From contig DAHUYE010000043.1 in the NCBI GenBank assembly GCA_027315345.1, positions 1 to 64,000 on the forward strand: a DNA stretch of 64,000 nucleotides, given 5' to 3'. Origin of the DNA: Actinomycetota bacterium (GTDB taxonomy: Bacteria; Actinomycetota; Acidimicrobiia; Acidimicrobiales; JAJPHE01). The notes beneath the pieces are model-generated. The model was given only the letters and a program-made list of their open reading frames with translations, was not told where the DNA came from and made no database searches. The position numbers and the translations under genes are program-made. This document shows positions 35,133 to 48,403 of this stretch, one piece after another (within the stretch, counting starts at the first letter, position 1; every line of letters starts with the position of its first letter).

Positions 35133-35371
35133 GGCCCCAGTGTCGCACCGGCGCCGGTCCCCGCGCTTCCGGGCGTGCACCGGGCCGAAGCGGGCCCCAC
35201 GGCGCCACATGGCCCCTTTGTCAGGGAGTTGATAGTCCGTTGGGACCATGACGATCTAGCGCCGACATCCCATTTGTCAGATGAGTCTCGACTCCCTGTA
35301 CTTACCCTGTCACTCTCAGTGGCAAGGAACGGGGCCACAGCACAGCTGGGCCCCCGGGCGAGGAGCAAAGA

Positions 35372-37153
35372 ATGAAGATACGGACGTCCCGTAAGGGCGT
35401 TTCCTGGGATATGAGGGACGCGGCGCATAGCTTGCGCCGACGCCTCCTGGCCGCGGGCACCGCCGGGGTCAGCCTGTTCGCCATGGCGGCCCCGGCGGCC
35501 ATGGCGAACACTCCCACCGCCGGTGAAGGGCCCCTTCAGTCCGTGCTGGTGGAATACGCGCCACCCGGTGCAACCATTGCCGCCGACGCCGCCGGGGTCG
35601 CCAGCACCCGGACCGACACGCTCGGCCTGCTCGGCTCGGTCCTGCCACCGGGCCTGGCCACGCAGACCTTCGACTCGACCGGGGCGGTGGCCGTGACCCT
35701 GCCCCAGGCCCTGATCGGTGTCCTGGAGGCCGACGGGGCGACGGTCAGCCCGGACACACACGGGAACCCGTTCCTGAGCACCACCTCGACGGCCACCTGC
35801 CCGTCGGCCACGACCTACTCCCCGCCGACGGGATACTTCCCGACCGACACCGGGGCCAACCAGCTGGCCGGCGCCGGTGACACCGGTCAGGGGACCACCG
35901 TGGCCATCCTGGACACCGGCATCGATGGCAGCCTGCCGGACTTTGCCGGGCGCCTGATCGGCGGCGCCGACCTGAGCGGGGGCAGCTCCCCCTTCACCGA
36001 CGGGTACGGACACGGGACCTTCGTGGCCGGCCTGGTGGCCGGCAACGGCGCCAGCTCGAACGGCCAGTACGTGGGCGAGGCTCCGGGGGCCAACCTGGTG
36101 TCGATCAAGGTGGCCGGCGCCAACGGCGCCACCAGCATCTCCACCATCATCCACGGGATCGACTGGGCGGTGAACCACCAGTCCCAGTACGGGATCAACG
36201 TCCTCAACCTGTCCCTGGGGGCCATGCCCACCGGGCCGACGGCCACCGAGCCGCTGGACCAGGCCGTCGAGTACGCCTGGAACGCGGGAATCACCGTGGT
36301 GGTGGCGGCGGGGAACTCCGGCCCGTTCAACGGGACCATCACCAGCCCCGGTGACGACCCGCTGGTCATAACCACCGGCGCCTTCGCCGACAACAACTCC
36401 CCGGCCCCGGCCAACTGGGCCGCCTGCCCGTTCTCCTCGGTGGGACCCACCGAGTACGACGGCTGGCTCAAGCCCGACCTGGTGGCCCCGGGCCGTTCGG
36501 TGGTCAGCCTGCTCGACCCGGGCTCGACCATCGCCACGGCCAACCCCCAGGCGGTGGTGGGCACGGCCAACTTCGTCGGGTCGGGCACGTCTTTCTCGGC
36601 GGCCATCACCTCCGGCGCCGCCGCCCTGGTGCTGTCGGCCAACCCGGGCATCAGCCCCAACGCCATCAAGGGCCGCCTGCTCGGCAACGCCATGCCGGGT
36701 GAGCTCGGCAACCCCTTCGTGGAGGGCCACGGCTTTCTCAACGCCTACGACGCAGCCACCGGGCCTCCGATGGTCTACCACCAAGGCCCGGCGGCCCTGG
36801 CCGAGGCCTCGTCCGTGCCGAGCAGCGTCAGCCTCAGCTCGGCCTGGGGCCCCTCGTCCTGGAACCCAGCCAACTGGACCGGCTCGGCCTGGGACGGCTC
36901 GGCCTGGGACGGCTCCTCGTGGACCGCCGGCCCTTGGAACGGCTCCTCCTGGACCGGCTCGGCCTGGGACGGCTCCTCCTGGACCGGCTCCAGTTGGACC
37001 GGCTCCTCCTGGACCGGCTCTTCCTGGACCGGCTCCAGTTGGACCGGCTCCTCCTGGACCGGCTCGGCCTGGGACGCCATGGCCTGGGACGGCTCGTCCT
37101 GGACCGGCTCGTCCTGGACCGGCTCGGCCTGGGACGGGGATCTCTGGGCGTGA
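35372..37153 (+). CDS. S8 family subtilisin-like serine peptidase, secreted, with C-terminal WTGSS/AWDGS repeats
   Basis: Signal-like region, VAILDTGIDGSLPDFAGRL (Asp), GHGTFVAGLVAG (His), GTSFSAAITSGAAALVLS (Ser); C-terminal pentapeptide repeats. Confidence 0.93.
   Translation: MKIRTSRKGVSWDMRDAAHSLRRRLLAAGTAGVSLFAMAAPAAMANTPTAGEGPLQSVLVEYAPPGATIAADAAGVASTRTDTLGLLGSVLPPGLATQTFDSTGAVAVTLPQALIGVLEADGATVSPDTHGNPFLSTTSTATCPSATTYSPPTGYFPTDTGANQLAGAGDTGQGTTVAILDTGIDGSLPDFAGRLIGGADLSGGSSPFTDGYGHGTFVAGLVAGNGASSNGQYVGEAPGANLVSIKVAGANGATSISTIIHGIDWAVNHQSQYGINVLNLSLGAMPTGPTATEPLDQAVEYAWNAGITVVVAAGNSGPFNGTITSPGDDPLVITTGAFADNNSPAPANWAACPFSSVGPTEYDGWLKPDLVAPGRSVVSLLDPGSTIATANPQAVVGTANFVGSGTSFSAAITSGAAALVLSANPGISPNAIKGRLLGNAMPGELGNPFVEGHGFLNAYDAATGPPMVYHQGPAALAEASSVPSSVSLSSAWGPSSWNPANWTGSAWDGSAWDGSSWTAGPWNGSSWTGSAWDGSSWTGSSWTGSSWTGSSWTGSSWTGSSWTGSAWDAMAWDGSSWTGSSWTGSAWDGDLWA
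36885..37150. repeat. 15-bp-period tandem repeats encoding SxWTG/AWDG units
   Basis: Reiterated ggctcctcctggacc / ggctcggcctgggac units. Confidence 0.93.
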
Positions 37154-37225
37154 CACCCCCACCGGGGCGCAACGGGGCGCCCCGGGAAGCGGCGCAGAAG
37201 CTGCGCACTCAATATTCAGGCTCCT

Positions 37226-37270
37226 GATGCCGATCTACCCGGACCCCCCTGGTTCGGGTAGGCCGGCATC
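37226..37270 (+). terminator. Imperfect inverted-repeat hairpin between the subtilisin and GGDEF-EAL genes
   Basis: gatgccgatctacccgga-ccccccctgg-like loop-ttcgggtaggccggcatc; arms pair almost fully over about 18 nt; no U-tract. Confidence 0.5.
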
Positions 37271-37306
37271 GGGGGCAACACCGGATCGATCGGCAGACCA
37301 CGGACC

Positions 37307-40093
37307 ATGACCAAACCAGGGCTCACAATTTCGGCGCAGGCCAAGGTGATGGGTTTGTCCGGCACGCTCGCCGCCCTGGCCGGGGCCGCCCTGTGGCTCG
37401 CCATCCGATCCGCCGGAACGATTCACTCGCCCATCTCGATCCCGTGGTGGGGCTTTGCCCTGGGCTTCCTGGCCACCGAGGTCCTGGTCTTCCACGTCGA
37501 GATCCGCCAGGAGGCGCACTCCTTCAGCTTGAGCGAGTTGCCCCTGGTCATCGGCTTCTTCTTCGCCTCACCCTGGACGTTGATGGCCGGTCGCCTGCTC
37601 GCCCACCTCATCTACCGGTCGGTTGTCCGCCGACAGACGCCACTCAAGCTGGTCTTCAACCTGAGCTCCTTCGCGGCGGAGACAGGCGTGGCCCTGTTCG
37701 TGTTCCACGCCCTCAGCAACGGGGACCCTCCCACCGCCCCGCGCTCCTGCCTGGCCATCCTGGCGGCGGTACTGGTGGCCGACACCCTCAGCACGTTCTC
37801 GGTGACGGCCGCCATCCGATTGTACGGCGGGGACACTCGGATCGTCACGATCATGCTGACGGCGGCGGTGACGGCCGGGGCCAACTCCAGCCTCGCTGTT
37901 CTGGCCGCCATCGTCCTGTGGGACAGCCCCTGGGCCATCGTACTCTTCGGCATGGTTGCCACCGCCGTCGCCCTGGCCTACCGGGGCTACGCCGGACTGC
38001 GCCAGCGCTACTCGAGCCTGCAGCTGCTCTATGACTTCACCAAGATGGTCGTGGCCTCCGTCACGGCCGAGCAGGTCATGGACGAGGTCCTGACCGAGGC
38101 CCGAAAGCTGCTGCGGGCCGAGCGGGCCGAGGTCTTCCTGCTGGACGAGGAGACCGGTACCTGCCGTCACCGCATCCGCAGCGATGACGCCGTCTCGCCC
38201 GGTCCCCTCCAGCCCACCGACTCCCCGGTGGGGCTGGAGTCGACCTGGGTGTGGGAAGAGGCGGTGGACCACCGCCGTCCGGTGGTGGTGTCCCAGTCCG
38301 GGCGGGGCCACTCCAGCGGCCAGTTCCTGGATCTGGTAGAAGCCAAGGATGCCATCGTGGCACCGCTCCTAGCCGAGGGTCGGGTGGTGGGGGTCATTCT
38401 GGTGGCCAACCGGATGGGCACCGTGAGCAGCTTCGACCAGGACGACCTGCAGCTCTTCGCCACCCTGGCCAACCACGCCAGCGTCGCCTTCGAGAATGGC
38501 CGCTTGGTCGACCAACTGCGCCGAGAGGCGGACGAGCGGCGTCACGAGGCGCTGCACGACTCCCTCACCGGCCTGGCCAACCGCACCTTGTTCCTCCAGC
38601 GGGTCGGGGAGCTGGGCAGCACCCGGGCTCGGGGCGACCAGCGCATGGCCGCGGTCATGCTGATGGACCTGGACCGCTTCAAGGAGGTCAACGACACCCT
38701 CGGCCACCACAATGGGGACCTCCTCCTGCGGGAGGTGGCCAACCGGATCGTGGCCACCCTGCGCCATGAGGACACCGTGGCCCGGCTGGGCGGGGACGAG
38801 TTCGCCATCCTGCTTCCTCACCTCACCTCGGTGGACCAAGCCCTCTCCAGCGCCCAGCGCATTGTCGAGGCCCTGCAGCAGAGCTTCAGCCTGGACCAGC
38901 TCTCCGTCGACGTGGGCGCCAGCATCGGCATCGCCATCAGCCCCGCCGACGGAGACGACGCCGCCACCCTGCTGCAGCGGGCCGACGTGGCCATGTACGA
39001 GGCCAAGGGCGCCAGCCACCCGGTCATGCTCTACTCCCCGGAGCGGGACAACTACAGCCCCAAGCGCCTGACCATGGCCGCCGAGTTGCGCCAGGCCCTG
39101 GCCGACGGGGAAATCGTCGTCTACCACCAGCCCAAGGCCCGTCTGTCCGACGGCGTCCTCATCGGCACGGAGGCACTGGTCCGGTGGCGCCATCCCCAGA
39201 ACGGCCTGATCGGGCCGGACGAGTTCATCCCCGTGGCCGAACAGACCGGGCTCATCGAGCCGCTCACCTTCTACGTCCTCCAGTCGGCCCTGGAACAGTG
39301 CCGGCAGTGGAACAACGCCGGCCATGACGTCGGGGTGGCGGTCAACCTCTCCGTGCGCAGCCTGCTCGATCCCGATCTGTCGTCCCGGGTGGAGGCCCTC
39401 CTGGCCCAGACCGGAGTGGCCGGGTCACGCCTGACCCTGGAGATCACCGAGTCGGGCGTCATGGCCGATCCCACCCGGGCCATCGCCATGCTCGAGCGCC
39501 TGGCCGCCACCGGGGTCAAACTGTCGGTGGACGACTTCGGGACCGGATACTCATCGCTGTCCTATCTGCGCCGCCTGCCCGTCCACGAGGTCAAGGTGGA
39601 CCGCTCCTTCGTCTTCCGCATGGCCACCGATCCGAGCGACGCCACCATTGTCCAGTCCATCATCGAGCTGGGCCGCAACCTCGGCCTGCGCACGGTGGCC
39701 GAGGGGGTCGAGGACCAGATCTCCTGGGAGCTGCTGCGGGGCATGGGCTGCGACGTGGCCCAGGGCTATCTGCTCAGCAAGCCCGTACCGGCTCAGGCCA
39801 TCACCCGCTGGCTCGATGATGTGCGCCGGGCCTCCTTCACCTCCAGCGAAGCGGCTCCGGACCTGCCCGCCCCCACCGACGCCGGCCTGGTCCCTGCCAC
39901 CGTGCCCACCGGACTGACGGCCGCCGCCGGCCTGAGCAGCGCCGCCGCCGGCCTGAGGGCCGCCGCTGTGATGGCGGAAGCGGAAGCCGAAGCCGAAGAG
40001 CCGGGCTGTGACATCGTTCCCATCACCGGCCGGCGGCTGGTCCCGGCCAACGGGCCGAGCCTGCCCGGGGCGAACCGGGTCCTGCTCCGGTAG
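37307..40093 (+). CDS. Diguanylate cyclase/phosphodiesterase: N-terminal multi-TM sensor, GAF, GGDEF, EAL
   Basis: Several TM helices, GAF-like TAEQVMDEVLTEARKLLRAERAEVFLLDEE, LGGDEFAILLP, GTEALVRWRHPQNGLIGPDEFIPVAEQTG, VDDFGTGYSSLSYL. Confidence 0.93.
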   Translation: MTKPGLTISAQAKVMGLSGTLAALAGAALWLAIRSAGTIHSPISIPWWGFALGFLATEVLVFHVEIRQEAHSFSLSELPLVIGFFFASPWTLMAGRLLAHLIYRSVVRRQTPLKLVFNLSSFAAETGVALFVFHALSNGDPPTAPRSCLAILAAVLVADTLSTFSVTAAIRLYGGDTRIVTIMLTAAVTAGANSSLAVLAAIVLWDSPWAIVLFGMVATAVALAYRGYAGLRQRYSSLQLLYDFTKMVVASVTAEQVMDEVLTEARKLLRAERAEVFLLDEETGTCRHRIRSDDAVSPGPLQPTDSPVGLESTWVWEEAVDHRRPVVVSQSGRGHSSGQFLDLVEAKDAIVAPLLAEGRVVGVILVANRMGTVSSFDQDDLQLFATLANHASVAFENGRLVDQLRREADERRHEALHDSLTGLANRTLFLQRVGELGSTRARGDQRMAAVMLMDLDRFKEVNDTLGHHNGDLLLREVANRIVATLRHEDTVARLGGDEFAILLPHLTSVDQALSSAQRIVEALQQSFSLDQLSVDVGASIGIAISPADGDDAATLLQRADVAMYEAKGASHPVMLYSPERDNYSPKRLTMAAELRQALADGEIVVYHQPKARLSDGVLIGTEALVRWRHPQNGLIGPDEFIPVAEQTGLIEPLTFYVLQSALEQCRQWNNAGHDVGVAVNLSVRSLLDPDLSSRVEALLAQTGVAGSRLTLEITESGVMADPTRAIAMLERLAATGVKLSVDDFGTGYSSLSYLRRLPVHEVKVDRSFVFRMATDPSDATIVQSIIELGRNLGLRTVAEGVEDQISWELLRGMGCDVAQGYLLSKPVPAQAITRWLDDVRRASFTSSEAAPDLPAPTDAGLVPATVPTGLTAAAGLSSAAAGLRAAAVMAEAEAEAEEPGCDIVPITGRRLVPANGPSLPGANRVLLR

Positions 40094-42681: not shown

Positions 42682-43950
42682 TCAACCGGTGATGCGGGTG
42701 ACCTCGGGTACGGCCGAACCGATCTCCCCGATCGCCATCACCTGGACGGTGCTACCGGTGTGGGTGGCGTTGACCACGTCACCGTCACCGACATAGATGC
42801 CGACGTGGTAGATCGAGCCGCCCGACGACCAGAAGACCAGGTCCCCGGGGGCGGCCTGGGAGAGTGGGACGTGGGAGCCGGCGTCGTACTGGCCGGCGGC
42901 GGTGCGGGGCAGGGTGACCCCCTGTTCCTCGAAGGCCCGGTAGACCAGGCCCGAACAGTCATAGGCGCCCAGGCCCGAGGCCCCGTAGGAGTAGGGCTTT
43001 CCCTGCTGGGAAAGGGCGAACTTCTCGGCCCGCTGGGTCAGGCTGGGCGGGGCCGGGGACGGGGCTGGAGCCGGGCCCGAGGCGGCCGAGGAGCTGTAGA
43101 CAGGAGGAAGGGATACCTCCGCCATGGCCGTGAAGACACCCGGCGGGGTGGATCCGTCCGAGCCGAAGGCCCGGACCTCACCGGCCCCGTCCACCAGCCA
43201 GTAGCCGTTGGAGTCGTCGGCCGCCACCAACTGGTCCACGGGGGTGCCCGACCCGGCCGGGGCTCCCGAGCCCAGGAAAGTGGCGTCCCCGTAGTTGAAG
43301 ACACCCCCGTCGGCGGCGTAGAGCCAATACCCCCTGCCGTCGGCGGTGGGGGTGATGCCGGTGACCGGGGCGGAGAGCTTCTTGGCCCCGGCCGAGCCGA
43401 AGAAGCCGGCATCACCGAAAGTGAACACCCCTCCGTCGGAGGCGACCAGCCAGTAGCCCCGGCCGTCGCTGGTGGGGGCTATGGCGATGACCGGGCTGGC
43501 CAGGTGCTCGGCCCCGGTGGAGCCGTAGAAGCCGGCGTCCCCGTAGCTGAAGACGCCTCCGTCGGAGGCGACCAGCCAGTAGCCCTTACCGTCGGCGGTG
43601 GCGGCCATGCCGACTACGGGATGGGTGATGCCCTGGGGCGAGCCGTAACCGGTGGCGTCACCGAAGGCGGTCACCCGTCCGCCGCTCTCGGCCAGCCAGT
43701 AGCCGCTGCCGTCCGGGGTGGGGACGATGGCCGCCACATAGGCGCCCGAATCGGGCGTGTCGGAACCGAGGGACTGAGCCCCTCCTACGGCGTCGACGTG
43801 ACCGCCGCTATGTGCCATCCAATAGGACGGGGCCTGATCGGCAACAACTGGTGTCGTGCCGCTGAAGCTGAGGGTGACCGTTCCGGCCGCAAAGCCGGCT
43901 GCGCCCAAGAGGAAACGGGCCACCCGATGTCTGGAGTGGTGCTTGCGCAT
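42682..43950 (-). CDS. NlpC/P60 family peptidase with N-terminal GYWLVASDGG-type repeats
   Basis: Repeats such as GKGYWLVASDGGVFSYGDAGFYGSTGAEHL, then GKPYSYGASGLGAYDCSGLVYRAFEEQGVTLPRTAAGQYDAG...DLVFWSSGGSIYHVGIYVGDG. Confidence 0.92.
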   Translation of the reverse strand: MRKHHSRHRVARFLLGAAGFAAGTVTLSFSGTTPVVADQAPSYWMAHSGGHVDAVGGAQSLGSDTPDSGAYVAAIVPTPDGSGYWLAESGGRVTAFGDATGYGSPQGITHPVVGMAATADGKGYWLVASDGGVFSYGDAGFYGSTGAEHLASPVIAIAPTSDGRGYWLVASDGGVFTFGDAGFFGSAGAKKLSAPVTGITPTADGRGYWLYAADGGVFNYGDATFLGSGAPAGSGTPVDQLVAADDSNGYWLVDGAGEVRAFGSDGSTPPGVFTAMAEVSLPPVYSSSAASGPAPAPSPAPPSLTQRAEKFALSQQGKPYSYGASGLGAYDCSGLVYRAFEEQGVTLPRTAAGQYDAGSHVPLSQAAPGDLVFWSSGGSIYHVGIYVGDGDVVNATHTGSTVQVMAIGEIGSAVPEVTRITG

Positions 43951-44290
43951 CTCACGCCTCCTTGAGAAGTGGGCCGGGGACCCGGGCCCTTCAGGTGTGG
44001 TGGAGTGCGGGCAACCGCCTTTTGGCATTCAGCTCGCGACCGGACCGATTGCAGGTGCCGCCGCCGAGGGGCGTGGTTCCGTGATCGGGTCGGGACTCTC
44101 GTCCGTACGAGGTGCAGACGGAAAACCCTGGTTCTCTTCGGCTAGGCGATCACCTCATAGGGGGGGGCGCGCCGCACCAAGGCGCTGGGGTTGGGGGGGA
44201 CGACCGGGCAGAGGCGCGGCCGGGGGCGTATCGACTCCGTCAGGACCGAAGTCCCACGACGAAGTTCGTCACTCTAGGTGAATATCCTCC
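43951..44290 (-). ncRNA. Candidate structured 5' leader of the NlpC/P60 gene
   Basis: On the minus strand: UUCG tetraloop hairpin GGAC-UUCG-GUCC (44243-44254), palindrome GACGAA-c-TTCGTC (44258-44270), and overlapping alternative stems UCCGU/ACGGA versus CUCGU/ACGAG near 44095-44125. Confidence 0.3.
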
Positions 44291-46087: not shown

Positions 46088-48403
46088 GTGCGGGGCGGAC
46101 GCCAACACCGGGCTGTGCTGATCGGCCTCCTGGTCCTCGGAATCGCCTGTACCAGCGTGGTGGTGGGCCTCTCGGCCCGGCCGGCCGGCGCCGCCGGCAC
46201 CGGTAGCGGGCCGGGGCCGGGAACGGTCGCCTCGCTGGCTTTCTCCCCCGCCCCGGTGGCCCCCACCGGCAGCCTGGCCCCGGGCCAGGCCGTGGACGTG
46301 ACCCTTACCGCCCTGGATCCCTCCGGAGCACCCGTCAATGACGGCCTGGTCTATCTGTCCCTGACCTCCACGGCGGCGGCGGCCGGGACCGCCTCGGTGG
46401 GAGGGACCGCCCTGACCTCCAGCCCGGAACCCTTCACCACCTCCCAGAACGGGCTGGTGGCCATCGCCTACGCCGCCGCCGACCCCCAGTGTTCGAGCGG
46501 TGGCGTATGCATCCCGGCCGCCTTCCCCACGGCCGGGGCCGATGAGATCCAGGCCTCGACGGCTCCGCCGTCCGGCTCGGGGGCCGGAGCGTCCGCCTCC
46601 CCGACCACGGCCCAGGACGCCTACTCCTACGCCCCGGCCGGCCCGGCGCCGGGCCCGGACCGCTACAGCTTCTCCCCCGATCCTCTGGCCGGCCCCGGCA
46701 GCCTCCAGGCCGGCCAGAGCGTGTCGGTGGTCCTCACCGTGACCCGGGCCTCCGGGGCGCCGGAGCCCCAGGCGGCCGTCTTCGTCTCCGTGGCCACCAC
46801 CAGCGGTGGAGCCACCCCCCAGGTCACCTCGACCCAGTGCGCCCAGGGACAACTCGGTTCCGCCCCAACCGACTGCACGACCGACGCCAACGGCCATCTG
46901 GCCCTGGACTACTCGGTGCCCAGCCCGGGGCCGGGCTCGACCCTGCCCACCACGGGCCAGGATGCGATCACCGTCCAGAACCAGGCCGGCACCCCGACCG
47001 AATCGGCCACGGATGTCTATGAATACGGCGCCGCGTCCTACCACCTGTCGTCCACGCCCATGGCGCCGACCGGGTCGCTGGGATCGAACCAGTCCGAGAC
47101 CCTGTCCGTCACCGTCGTCGGGCCCGACGGGGTGGCGGTCCCTGACTGTCCGGTGTACCTGGTCCTGGCCGCGGCCAAGGACCAGGCCCCCGCCGGTTCG
47201 GCGGTGGCCACGGGAGCCACCCCCAGCCCGCAGAACCCGACCGGCGCCCCCGGCCTCGGCCCCAGCCCGGAGCCGTTCGACACCGACACCAACGGCGTGA
47301 TCCTGGTGACCTACTCCACCCCCGCTGGCACGCCATCCAGCGGCATGGACGTGCTGGTGGCCCAGAACCGGGCCACCAACCCGGACGTGGGGGTCTTCGA
47401 TCCCTATTCCTTCTCCTCCCCGGAGTTCTCCTTCTCCCCTGACCCCCTGGCCCCCGGCGCCTACCTCCACCCCGGCCAGAGCGTGACCACCACTCTTTCG
47501 GTGACGGCCTCGGCCCCCGGCGTCTATCTCTCCTTCGATCCGGCCCCGGGCGGGGGCTCGGCCTCGGTGGCCGGAGTTGCTCTGGGCCCCGCACCCAGCC
47601 CCTTCACCCCCGGCCCCGACGGCCGGCTCAGCCTCACCTACCAGGCCCCGGCCAGCCTCCCCAAGTCCGGGACCGACCGGATCGTGGTCCAGGACGCCGC
47701 CAGCGGGCCGGCCGCAGCCGCCTCGGACACCTACTCCTTCTCCCCCGGCCCGGCGGCCGGGACCGGCTCGGGGCCCGGCCCGGGCTACTGGCTGGTGGCG
47801 GCGGACGGAGGGGTCTTCAGCTTCGGTGGCGCCGGCTTCTTCGGGTCAACCGGGGCCATCCACCTGGCGGCGCCGGTGGTCGGGATGGCCGCTGCCCCCG
47901 ACGGCGGGGGGTACTGGCTGGTGGCCTCCGACGGGGGGGTCTTCAGCTTCGGGGACGCCCGCTTCTTCGGGTCCACCGGGGCCATCCATCTGGCCGCCCC
48001 GATCGTGGGCATGGCCGCCACCCCCGACGGCGGGGGGTACTGGCTGGCCGGGGCCGATGGGTCCGTCTACGCCTTCGGGGACGCCCCGGCCCGGGGCGGG
48101 GCCAACGGAACCGGCCTGGCCGCCCCGGTGGACGGGATCGCCCCCACCGCCACCGGGCTGGGGTACTGGCTGGTGGCCTCCGACGGGGGGGTCTTCAGCT
48201 TCGGGGACGCCGCCTGGTACGGCTCCACCGGCGGGGAGCACCTGAACGCCCCGGTGCTGGGCCTGGCCCCGACCGCCAACGCCGCCGGTTACCGCCTGGT
48301 GGCCCGGGACGGCGGGGTCTTTGCCTTCGGGAACGCCGCCTTTGACGGGTCCGAAGGGGGTGAAAGGCTCAATTCACCTGTCGTCGGGATGGCGACCACG
48401 TAA
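46088..48403 (+). CDS. Secreted surface protein: about 4 Ig-like/invasin-like repeats plus about 5 YWLVASDGGVFSFG repeats
   Basis: Signal-like N-terminus VLIGLLVLGIACTSVVVGLSARPAGA; repeated YSFSPDPLA.PGSL.PGQSV...SGTDRIVVQ...DTYSFSP blocks; C-terminal GYWLVASDGGVFSFGDARFFGSTGAIHLAAPIVGMAATPDGG. Confidence 0.9.
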   Translation: MRGGRQHRAVLIGLLVLGIACTSVVVGLSARPAGAAGTGSGPGPGTVASLAFSPAPVAPTGSLAPGQAVDVTLTALDPSGAPVNDGLVYLSLTSTAAAAGTASVGGTALTSSPEPFTTSQNGLVAIAYAAADPQCSSGGVCIPAAFPTAGADEIQASTAPPSGSGAGASASPTTAQDAYSYAPAGPAPGPDRYSFSPDPLAGPGSLQAGQSVSVVLTVTRASGAPEPQAAVFVSVATTSGGATPQVTSTQCAQGQLGSAPTDCTTDANGHLALDYSVPSPGPGSTLPTTGQDAITVQNQAGTPTESATDVYEYGAASYHLSSTPMAPTGSLGSNQSETLSVTVVGPDGVAVPDCPVYLVLAAAKDQAPAGSAVATGATPSPQNPTGAPGLGPSPEPFDTDTNGVILVTYSTPAGTPSSGMDVLVAQNRATNPDVGVFDPYSFSSPEFSFSPDPLAPGAYLHPGQSVTTTLSVTASAPGVYLSFDPAPGGGSASVAGVALGPAPSPFTPGPDGRLSLTYQAPASLPKSGTDRIVVQDAASGPAAAASDTYSFSPGPAAGTGSGPGPGYWLVAADGGVFSFGGAGFFGSTGAIHLAAPVVGMAAAPDGGGYWLVASDGGVFSFGDARFFGSTGAIHLAAPIVGMAATPDGGGYWLAGADGSVYAFGDAPARGGANGTGLAAPVDGIAPTATGLGYWLVASDGGVFSFGDAAWYGSTGGEHLNAPVLGLAPTANAAGYRLVARDGGVFAFGNAAFDGSEGGERLNSPVVGMATT

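Follow-up and report, generated by a model that had tools for sequence, protein, structure and literature searches.

A prediction made from sequence for the 64,000-nucleotide stretch of an Actinomycetota genome that was analysed here (the window) described a secreted subtilisin with a Trp-rich pentapeptide tail, and the locus raises the question of what such a tail does: whether it serves an exported protease that stands alone or belongs to a larger arrangement.

An S8 subtilase with a complete active site and a Trp-pentad tail

The following features of the gene were assigned:
35372 to 37153, forward strand: secreted S8 subtilase with Trp-pentad tail, 593 aa (ORF, Pfam PF00082, member of the W-tail S8 clade)
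35372 to 35506, forward strand: signal-peptide-like N-terminus, residues 1 to 45, AMA/N (sequence inspection; helix 15 to 30 in the model)
35534 to 35752, forward strand: propeptide-like alpha/beta domain, residues 55 to 127 (confident AlphaFold2 alpha/beta fold; best PDB match, the pro-form of Tk-SP, 3afg)
35885 to 36733, forward strand: Peptidase_S8 catalytic domain (Pfam; D181, H214, N315, and S407 present)
36839 to 37150, forward strand: 21 pentads, Trp recurring every five residues, with W-A-COOH as the end (Tandem Repeats Finder [TRF], pattern scan, codon analysis; unfolded in AlphaFold2)

A Shine-Dalgarno-like GAGGAG was found at 35360 to 35365, ahead of the ORF. Peptidase_S8 spanned residues 172 to 454 (PF00082, E-value 1.4e-43; 149.7 bits vs a gathering score of 21.8) and was the sole match of the Pfam scan in this protein at E-values up to 1. 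The Asp-His-Ser triad and the oxyanion Asn were all there (D181, H214, N315, and S407), and across 64 tailed relatives H214, N315, and S407 were invariant and D181 was at least 90% conserved. Thus, 35372 to 37153 encodes an active-site-complete S8 subtilase, with proteolysis predicted, and the secreted subtilisin with a complete S8 domain was borne out by the Pfam match, the triad, and, by inspection, the N-terminus. The Pfam S8 cut-off was passed at six places in the source genome, of which the full-length query matched only this ORF. Among solved structures, Tk-SP of Thermococcus kodakarensis (3afg) is the nearest relative and has the catalytic domain, triad, oxyanion Asn, and propeptide-like N-domain in common with it; however, the match stops before the tail, and neither a Trp-pentad array nor a coupled membrane sensor was matched in Tk-SP. 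The best NCBIfam similarity of the S8 domain was to the type VII secretion mycosin TIGR03921, at 155.7 bits, but membership was rejected as this is far below the curated cut-off of 278.75, and the window gene differs in having a signalling gene next to it instead.

The tail follows the motif [ST][SA]W[TDN]G at the C-terminus of the S8 protein. TRF reported 15 bp × 17.3 copies at 36874 to 37132 (score 236), and a search for eight TGG spaced exactly 15 bp apart gave 14 matches vs 0 in 100 dinucleotide shuffles; the Trp run is far beyond chance, and the predicted 15-bp tandem repeats with Trp at every fifth residue are confirmed by both. The array had been put at about 18 pentads; it is real, but its Trp register is unbroken over 21 units, a count that holds for the sequence as assembled, in which an error in the exact number is possible. 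The units were 83% identical to their own consensus, and the 18 inner units comprised 11 different 15-mers. The Trp codon was constant, wobble positions varied, and Ser was encoded as both TCN and AGT; the pattern is therefore kept at the protein level, and the array is no fresh product of slippage. The expected variation in copy number held up, as tails of relatives carry about 4 to 37 Trp.

An AlphaFold2 model built on a 64-sequence alignment resolved the propeptide and protease well and left residues 482 to 593 almost structureless (pLDDT mostly 25 to 40, and 25 to 33 in the tail). The pre-formed aromatic ladder that had been suggested for the tail was not predicted, the tail having no secondary structure in this model. 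AlphaFold2 has been reported to over-predict beta-solenoids on repeat sequences (PMC11795689); because no solenoid was modelled here, not even a false one, the model argues mildly for a flexible tail. Self-association or surface retention by the tail is possible. No Choline-binding or CW_binding repeats were matched by Pfam in the S8 protein at E-values up to 1.

Tailed subtilases form one clade

An earlier contig search with the window protein alone gave no confirmed relative. A W-x-G pentad scan of genome contigs, open to proteins of any kind, supplied the other tailed proteins that had been called for: at least 38 ORFs with an S8 domain were found, and among the matches listed nearly all of those outside S8 were short ORFs or lay in other frames. 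A general sorting tag carried by many exported proteins was rejected on this distribution among the matches listed. Hosts named among these matches were Frankiales, Geodermatophilus, Blastococcus, Acidothermus, Thermoleophilia, Ilumatobacter, and Dormibacterota, together with two Chloroflexi cases (L136 and L150) that were without a sensor neighbour. In relatives of the same order, each array had its own homogenised spacer (SSWNG, SQWGG, SRWAG, GKSWT, QAWSG, GSSWY, NSSAW, and others) with Trp still at every fifth residue, and the tail ended most often in Trp plus one residue (35 cases). In the S8-domain tree, the W-tail S8s grouped into a single clade with support (72 rows), and 40 other S8s fell outside it; only two members were without a visible tail, both cut by contig ends. 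A formal one-clade test on the 70 visible-tail rows rejected their separation from these two rows (p-AU 0.004), which was read as an effect of contig-end truncation. Since the Trp period is kept clade-wide while other positions diverge, a functionless tail is unlikely.

The tailed subtilase is linked to a membrane sensor gene

In the window, the W-tail S8 gene is directly followed by a gene whose product begins with a membrane domain common to the partners of this clade (35372 to 40093 for the two genes), with these features:
37220 to 37276, forward strand: 25-bp stem-loop with no T run, between S8 and partner (−48.2 kcal/mol, z −6.2, unique in the genome)
37307 to 40093, forward strand: partner, a membrane domain-GAF-GGDEF-EAL protein of 928 aa (Pfam; same-strand neighbour conserved beside the clade)
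37313 to 38137, forward strand: partner membrane sensor domain, multi-helix, with an S-component-like model (46-partner profile; homologous across outputs; Foldseek RibU/ThiT)
38549 to 39784, forward strand: GGDEF (415 to 568) and EAL (592 to 826) outputs (Pfam E-values 1.3e-46 and 2.5e-75)

For 52 tailed S8 genes, 3 kb or more of downstream sequence was available, and in 46 of these an output domain lay on the same strand less than 2.5 kb downstream; untailed S8s from the same order gave 0 of 24 (Fisher P-value 1.6e-14). The distance from S8 to output was typically 1.1 to 1.7 kb, which is as long as the membrane and GAF/PAS part. Of the loci lacking the GGDEF-EAL arrangement, ten were scanned; nine had a histidine kinase and one SpoIIE. 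The predicted S8/membrane-sensor pair spans several classes of Actinomycetota as well as Dormibacterota, and at one locus two tandem W-tail S8 genes each had a membrane sensor domain after them (L033, G040:C59). Other conserved clusters beyond the sensor appeared to be antisense frames of the S8 or partner genes. Gene neighbourhood of this kind is evidence of functional linkage and not of physical interaction.

The reverse direction was examined by a search with the membrane domain only. In 397 genomes of the phylum, 30 loci were read, 21 of them with a Trp array flagged directly ahead of the domain; with two spurious frames without S8 and one locus cut at its contig start left out, a W-tail S8 immediately precedes the domain at about 19 of the 29 best loci for which upstream sequence exists. 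Among 59 genomes of the order, W-tail S8s occurred in 17 of the 28 with the membrane domain and in 0 of the 31 without it. As orphan copies of the membrane domain exist, the dependence is clearer from S8 to sensor than the reverse. The source genome itself has two extra copies on GGDEF-EAL proteins without an S8 neighbour (L341 at G000:C67:1761-2591 and L342 at G000:C26:5424-6266), so that the receptor family is not always protease-dependent. This counts against the pairing, as do (i) the spacing in the window, where 153 bp and the very stable hairpin lie between the two genes while at other loci they are a few bases apart or overlap; and (ii) two of the three closest paralogues (L278 and L280), in which the partner is not adjacent. 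A terminator or attenuator is a possible role for the hairpin; no riboswitch or known RNA was matched by Rfam near the gene, hairpin included.

At a further locus (L352 / L030, G006:C216), an S8 domain was spread over several short frames beside a GGDEF domain, and neither a Trp tail nor the sensor membrane domain was found there.

The partner's membrane domain is one family with interchangeable outputs

The membrane domain was homologous in the GGDEF-EAL, histidine kinase, and SpoIIE partners: a profile made from those of the GGDEF-EAL partners found all 12 other partners at E-values of 4e-36 to 2.5e-61, and a reversed control found none. GGDEF and EAL motifs were present in the translation of the window partner, with enzyme function predicted. 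No Pfam model exceeded its cut-off for the membrane domain, the nearest being MASE9 (PF20972; 16.3 bits vs a cut-off of 24.3, E-value 0.0097, over 35 residues only). MASE-type sensors likewise place a multi-helix membrane input before GGDEF-EAL or kinase outputs, but the partner domain differs from them in falling below the MASE9 cut-off and in being paired with a secreted S8. Its AlphaFold2 model (pLDDT 91.7) gave as best PDB matches by Foldseek the ECF transporter S-components RibU and ThiT (TM-score on the target of about 0.55 to 0.68, probability up to 1.00), a weak alignment with their fold at E-values of 0.03 or worse and about 15% identity, and unlike these proteins the partner domain is fused to signalling outputs (GAF-GGDEF-EAL here). 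The modelled fold suggests a receptor for a small ligand or peptide.

The S8 domain co-diverges with the membrane domain

Distances between S8 domains correlated with those between membrane domains over 45 pairs (Mantel r 0.69, 0 of 2000 permutations as high; raw identity distances were used, and rate differences and saturation may affect r), and among pairs with different outputs r was 0.51. For the 31 GGDEF-EAL pairs, Mantel r was 0.72 between S8 and membrane domain vs 0.36 between S8 and GGDEF-EAL, with a bootstrap interval of 0.18 to 0.56 for the difference; the partial r between S8 and GGDEF-EAL given the membrane domain was 0.005. Because the membrane domain and GGDEF-EAL lie on one polypeptide, simple co-inheritance would not lead S8 to track just one of the two, the membrane domain; the co-divergence observed is what one expects if outputs are exchanged and S8 stays with its input. 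Ten output changes, neighbour losses included, were found on the S8 tree. At one kinase locus (L314), the S8 was 76% identical to that of a GGDEF-EAL locus (L138), and the membrane domain was closest to that of another GGDEF-EAL locus (L291). Tail composition was related to the membrane domain beyond S8 weakly (partial r 0.17), a further point against the pairing.

A proposed two-gene envelope sensory unit and its alternatives

The tailed S8 is better explained within a sensory pair than by a stand-alone binding tail. For the window, we lean modestly toward reading the two genes as one envelope sensory unit whose outputs can be swapped: the S8 would be its secreted half, and the Trp tail would act as a flexible, multivalent sticker. 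The protease would first be exported and relieved of its propeptide. The tail, with regular Trp stickers on Gly/Ser/Thr spacers, may then hold it in the envelope near its cognate receptor by anchoring to the wall or an exopolymer, to the membrane surface, or to other tails. The protease could cut a substrate, itself, or the receptor and in this way make, remove, or expose the signal read by the receptor, which would relay its state to the cytoplasmic output and, in the source genome, raise or lower c-di-GMP. We propose more tentatively, as slightly less likely than not, that the Trp-tailed subtilase is the dedicated extracytoplasmic part of a modular receptor system, so far undescribed, in Actinomycetota, in which an S-component-like receptor is joined to interchangeable c-di-GMP, kinase, or phosphatase outputs, the signal is created or gated by proteolysis, and the tail is a tether or a receptor ligand.

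The closest competitor, an ordinary secreted or wall protease whose Trp tail forms an aromatic ladder on peptidoglycan or glycans and whose neighbour merely co-regulates it, for instance in biofilm matrix turnover, is unlikely. Trp exposed at regular intervals between small polar residues could stack on sugars, matrix production is often under c-di-GMP control, and the window neighbour is a c-di-GMP enzyme by Pfam; however, no folded ladder was predicted, and co-regulation accounts neither for S8 tracking the membrane domain instead of the GGDEF-EAL of the same polypeptide nor for the swap to kinase and SpoIIE outputs. We give somewhat less credence still to a tail that acts as a self-assembly or condensate element, building a protease-containing extracellular matrix the state of which the signalling partner senses: the predicted disorder and the internally homogenised arrays of 4 to 37 units, with Trp every five residues on Gly/Ser/Thr/Asn spacers, are in keeping with it, but the Lys, Arg, and Asp charges carried by some arrays may oppose self-association.

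Two further readings have very little probability. Pentapeptide repeat proteins (PF00805; consensus [STAV][DN][LF][STR]G) share the five-residue period and similar position preferences with the S-S/A-W-T/D/N-G register of the tail, and TRF scored the 60-bp (four-pentad) period above that of 15 bp; however, these proteins have Leu/Phe where the tail has Trp. A quadrilateral beta-helix of four pentads per coil with central Trp was set aside as improbable, as Pfam matched no PF00805 repeats in the repeat region at E-values up to 1, similarity at a lag of four pentads gave no special signal over 63 tails, and the pLDDT of 25 to 33 stands against the tendency of AlphaFold2 to over-predict solenoids (PMC11795689), a prediction that cannot exclude folding on binding. 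Just as improbable is that the two genes are adjacent by ancestral accident and that the S8 acts on its own: L278 and L280 indicate that the S8 can exist alone, but this leaves the linkage at 46 of 52 loci across several classes of Actinomycetota and Dormibacterota, and the exchange of outputs while S8 and membrane domain stay.

A parallel to the favoured sensory unit is LapD/LapG, a c-di-GMP-linked envelope protease system in which an envelope protease is likewise coupled to a membrane GGDEF-EAL protein. LapG, however, is a cysteine protease of another family that acts on an adhesin, as opposed to the S8 domain, Trp tail, and swappable outputs here. A literature search on the Trp-pentad motif, the S8/sensor pair, and related terms, which had preprints and most subscription papers outside its scope, returned nothing, and the accessible part of a 2022 census of c-di-GMP inputs mentions no such pair (PMC8846402). 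If the proposal is correct, (i) a widespread family named only "S8 family serine peptidase" would be half of a testable sensing system; (ii) a large unnamed membrane input domain would gain a partner; and (iii) signalling through c-di-GMP, kinases, and SpoIIE in little-studied actinobacteria would acquire an input coupled to proteolysis. The pair can be tested in cultured hosts, Geodermatophilus telluris (L161) among them. The tail is also useful for relating Trp spacing to binding or assembly, being a naturally occurring polymer with aromatic residues at even intervals and many sequence variants.

Other repeat arrays and S8 arrangements

Several arrays and S8 genes of other kinds were seen alongside. 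Within the window, an NlpC/P60 protein at 42682 to 44028 on the reverse strand has tandem 'GYWLVASDGGVF' repeats in 126-bp units, and another array of this kind is at 47776 to 48341; similar repeats end some untailed S8s (L021 and L061). Five tandem untailed S8 genes, all with an NNDLLFT[NR][LF] end, were found at one locus (L326, G020:C244). Trp-pentad arrays (WNGIG, WNGVD, WSGNT) were found near the ORF start of non-S8 proteins from Myxococcales (L137:1910-4051 and L141:2-1102) and another genome (L208:4240-5838). Viral contigs (L232, L233, L238, L239, L250, L258, and L272) carried long W-x-G-G-x arrays of 14 to 42 Trp that are unrelated to S8; the three of their proteins that were scanned (L238, L250, and L258) had no Pfam match.
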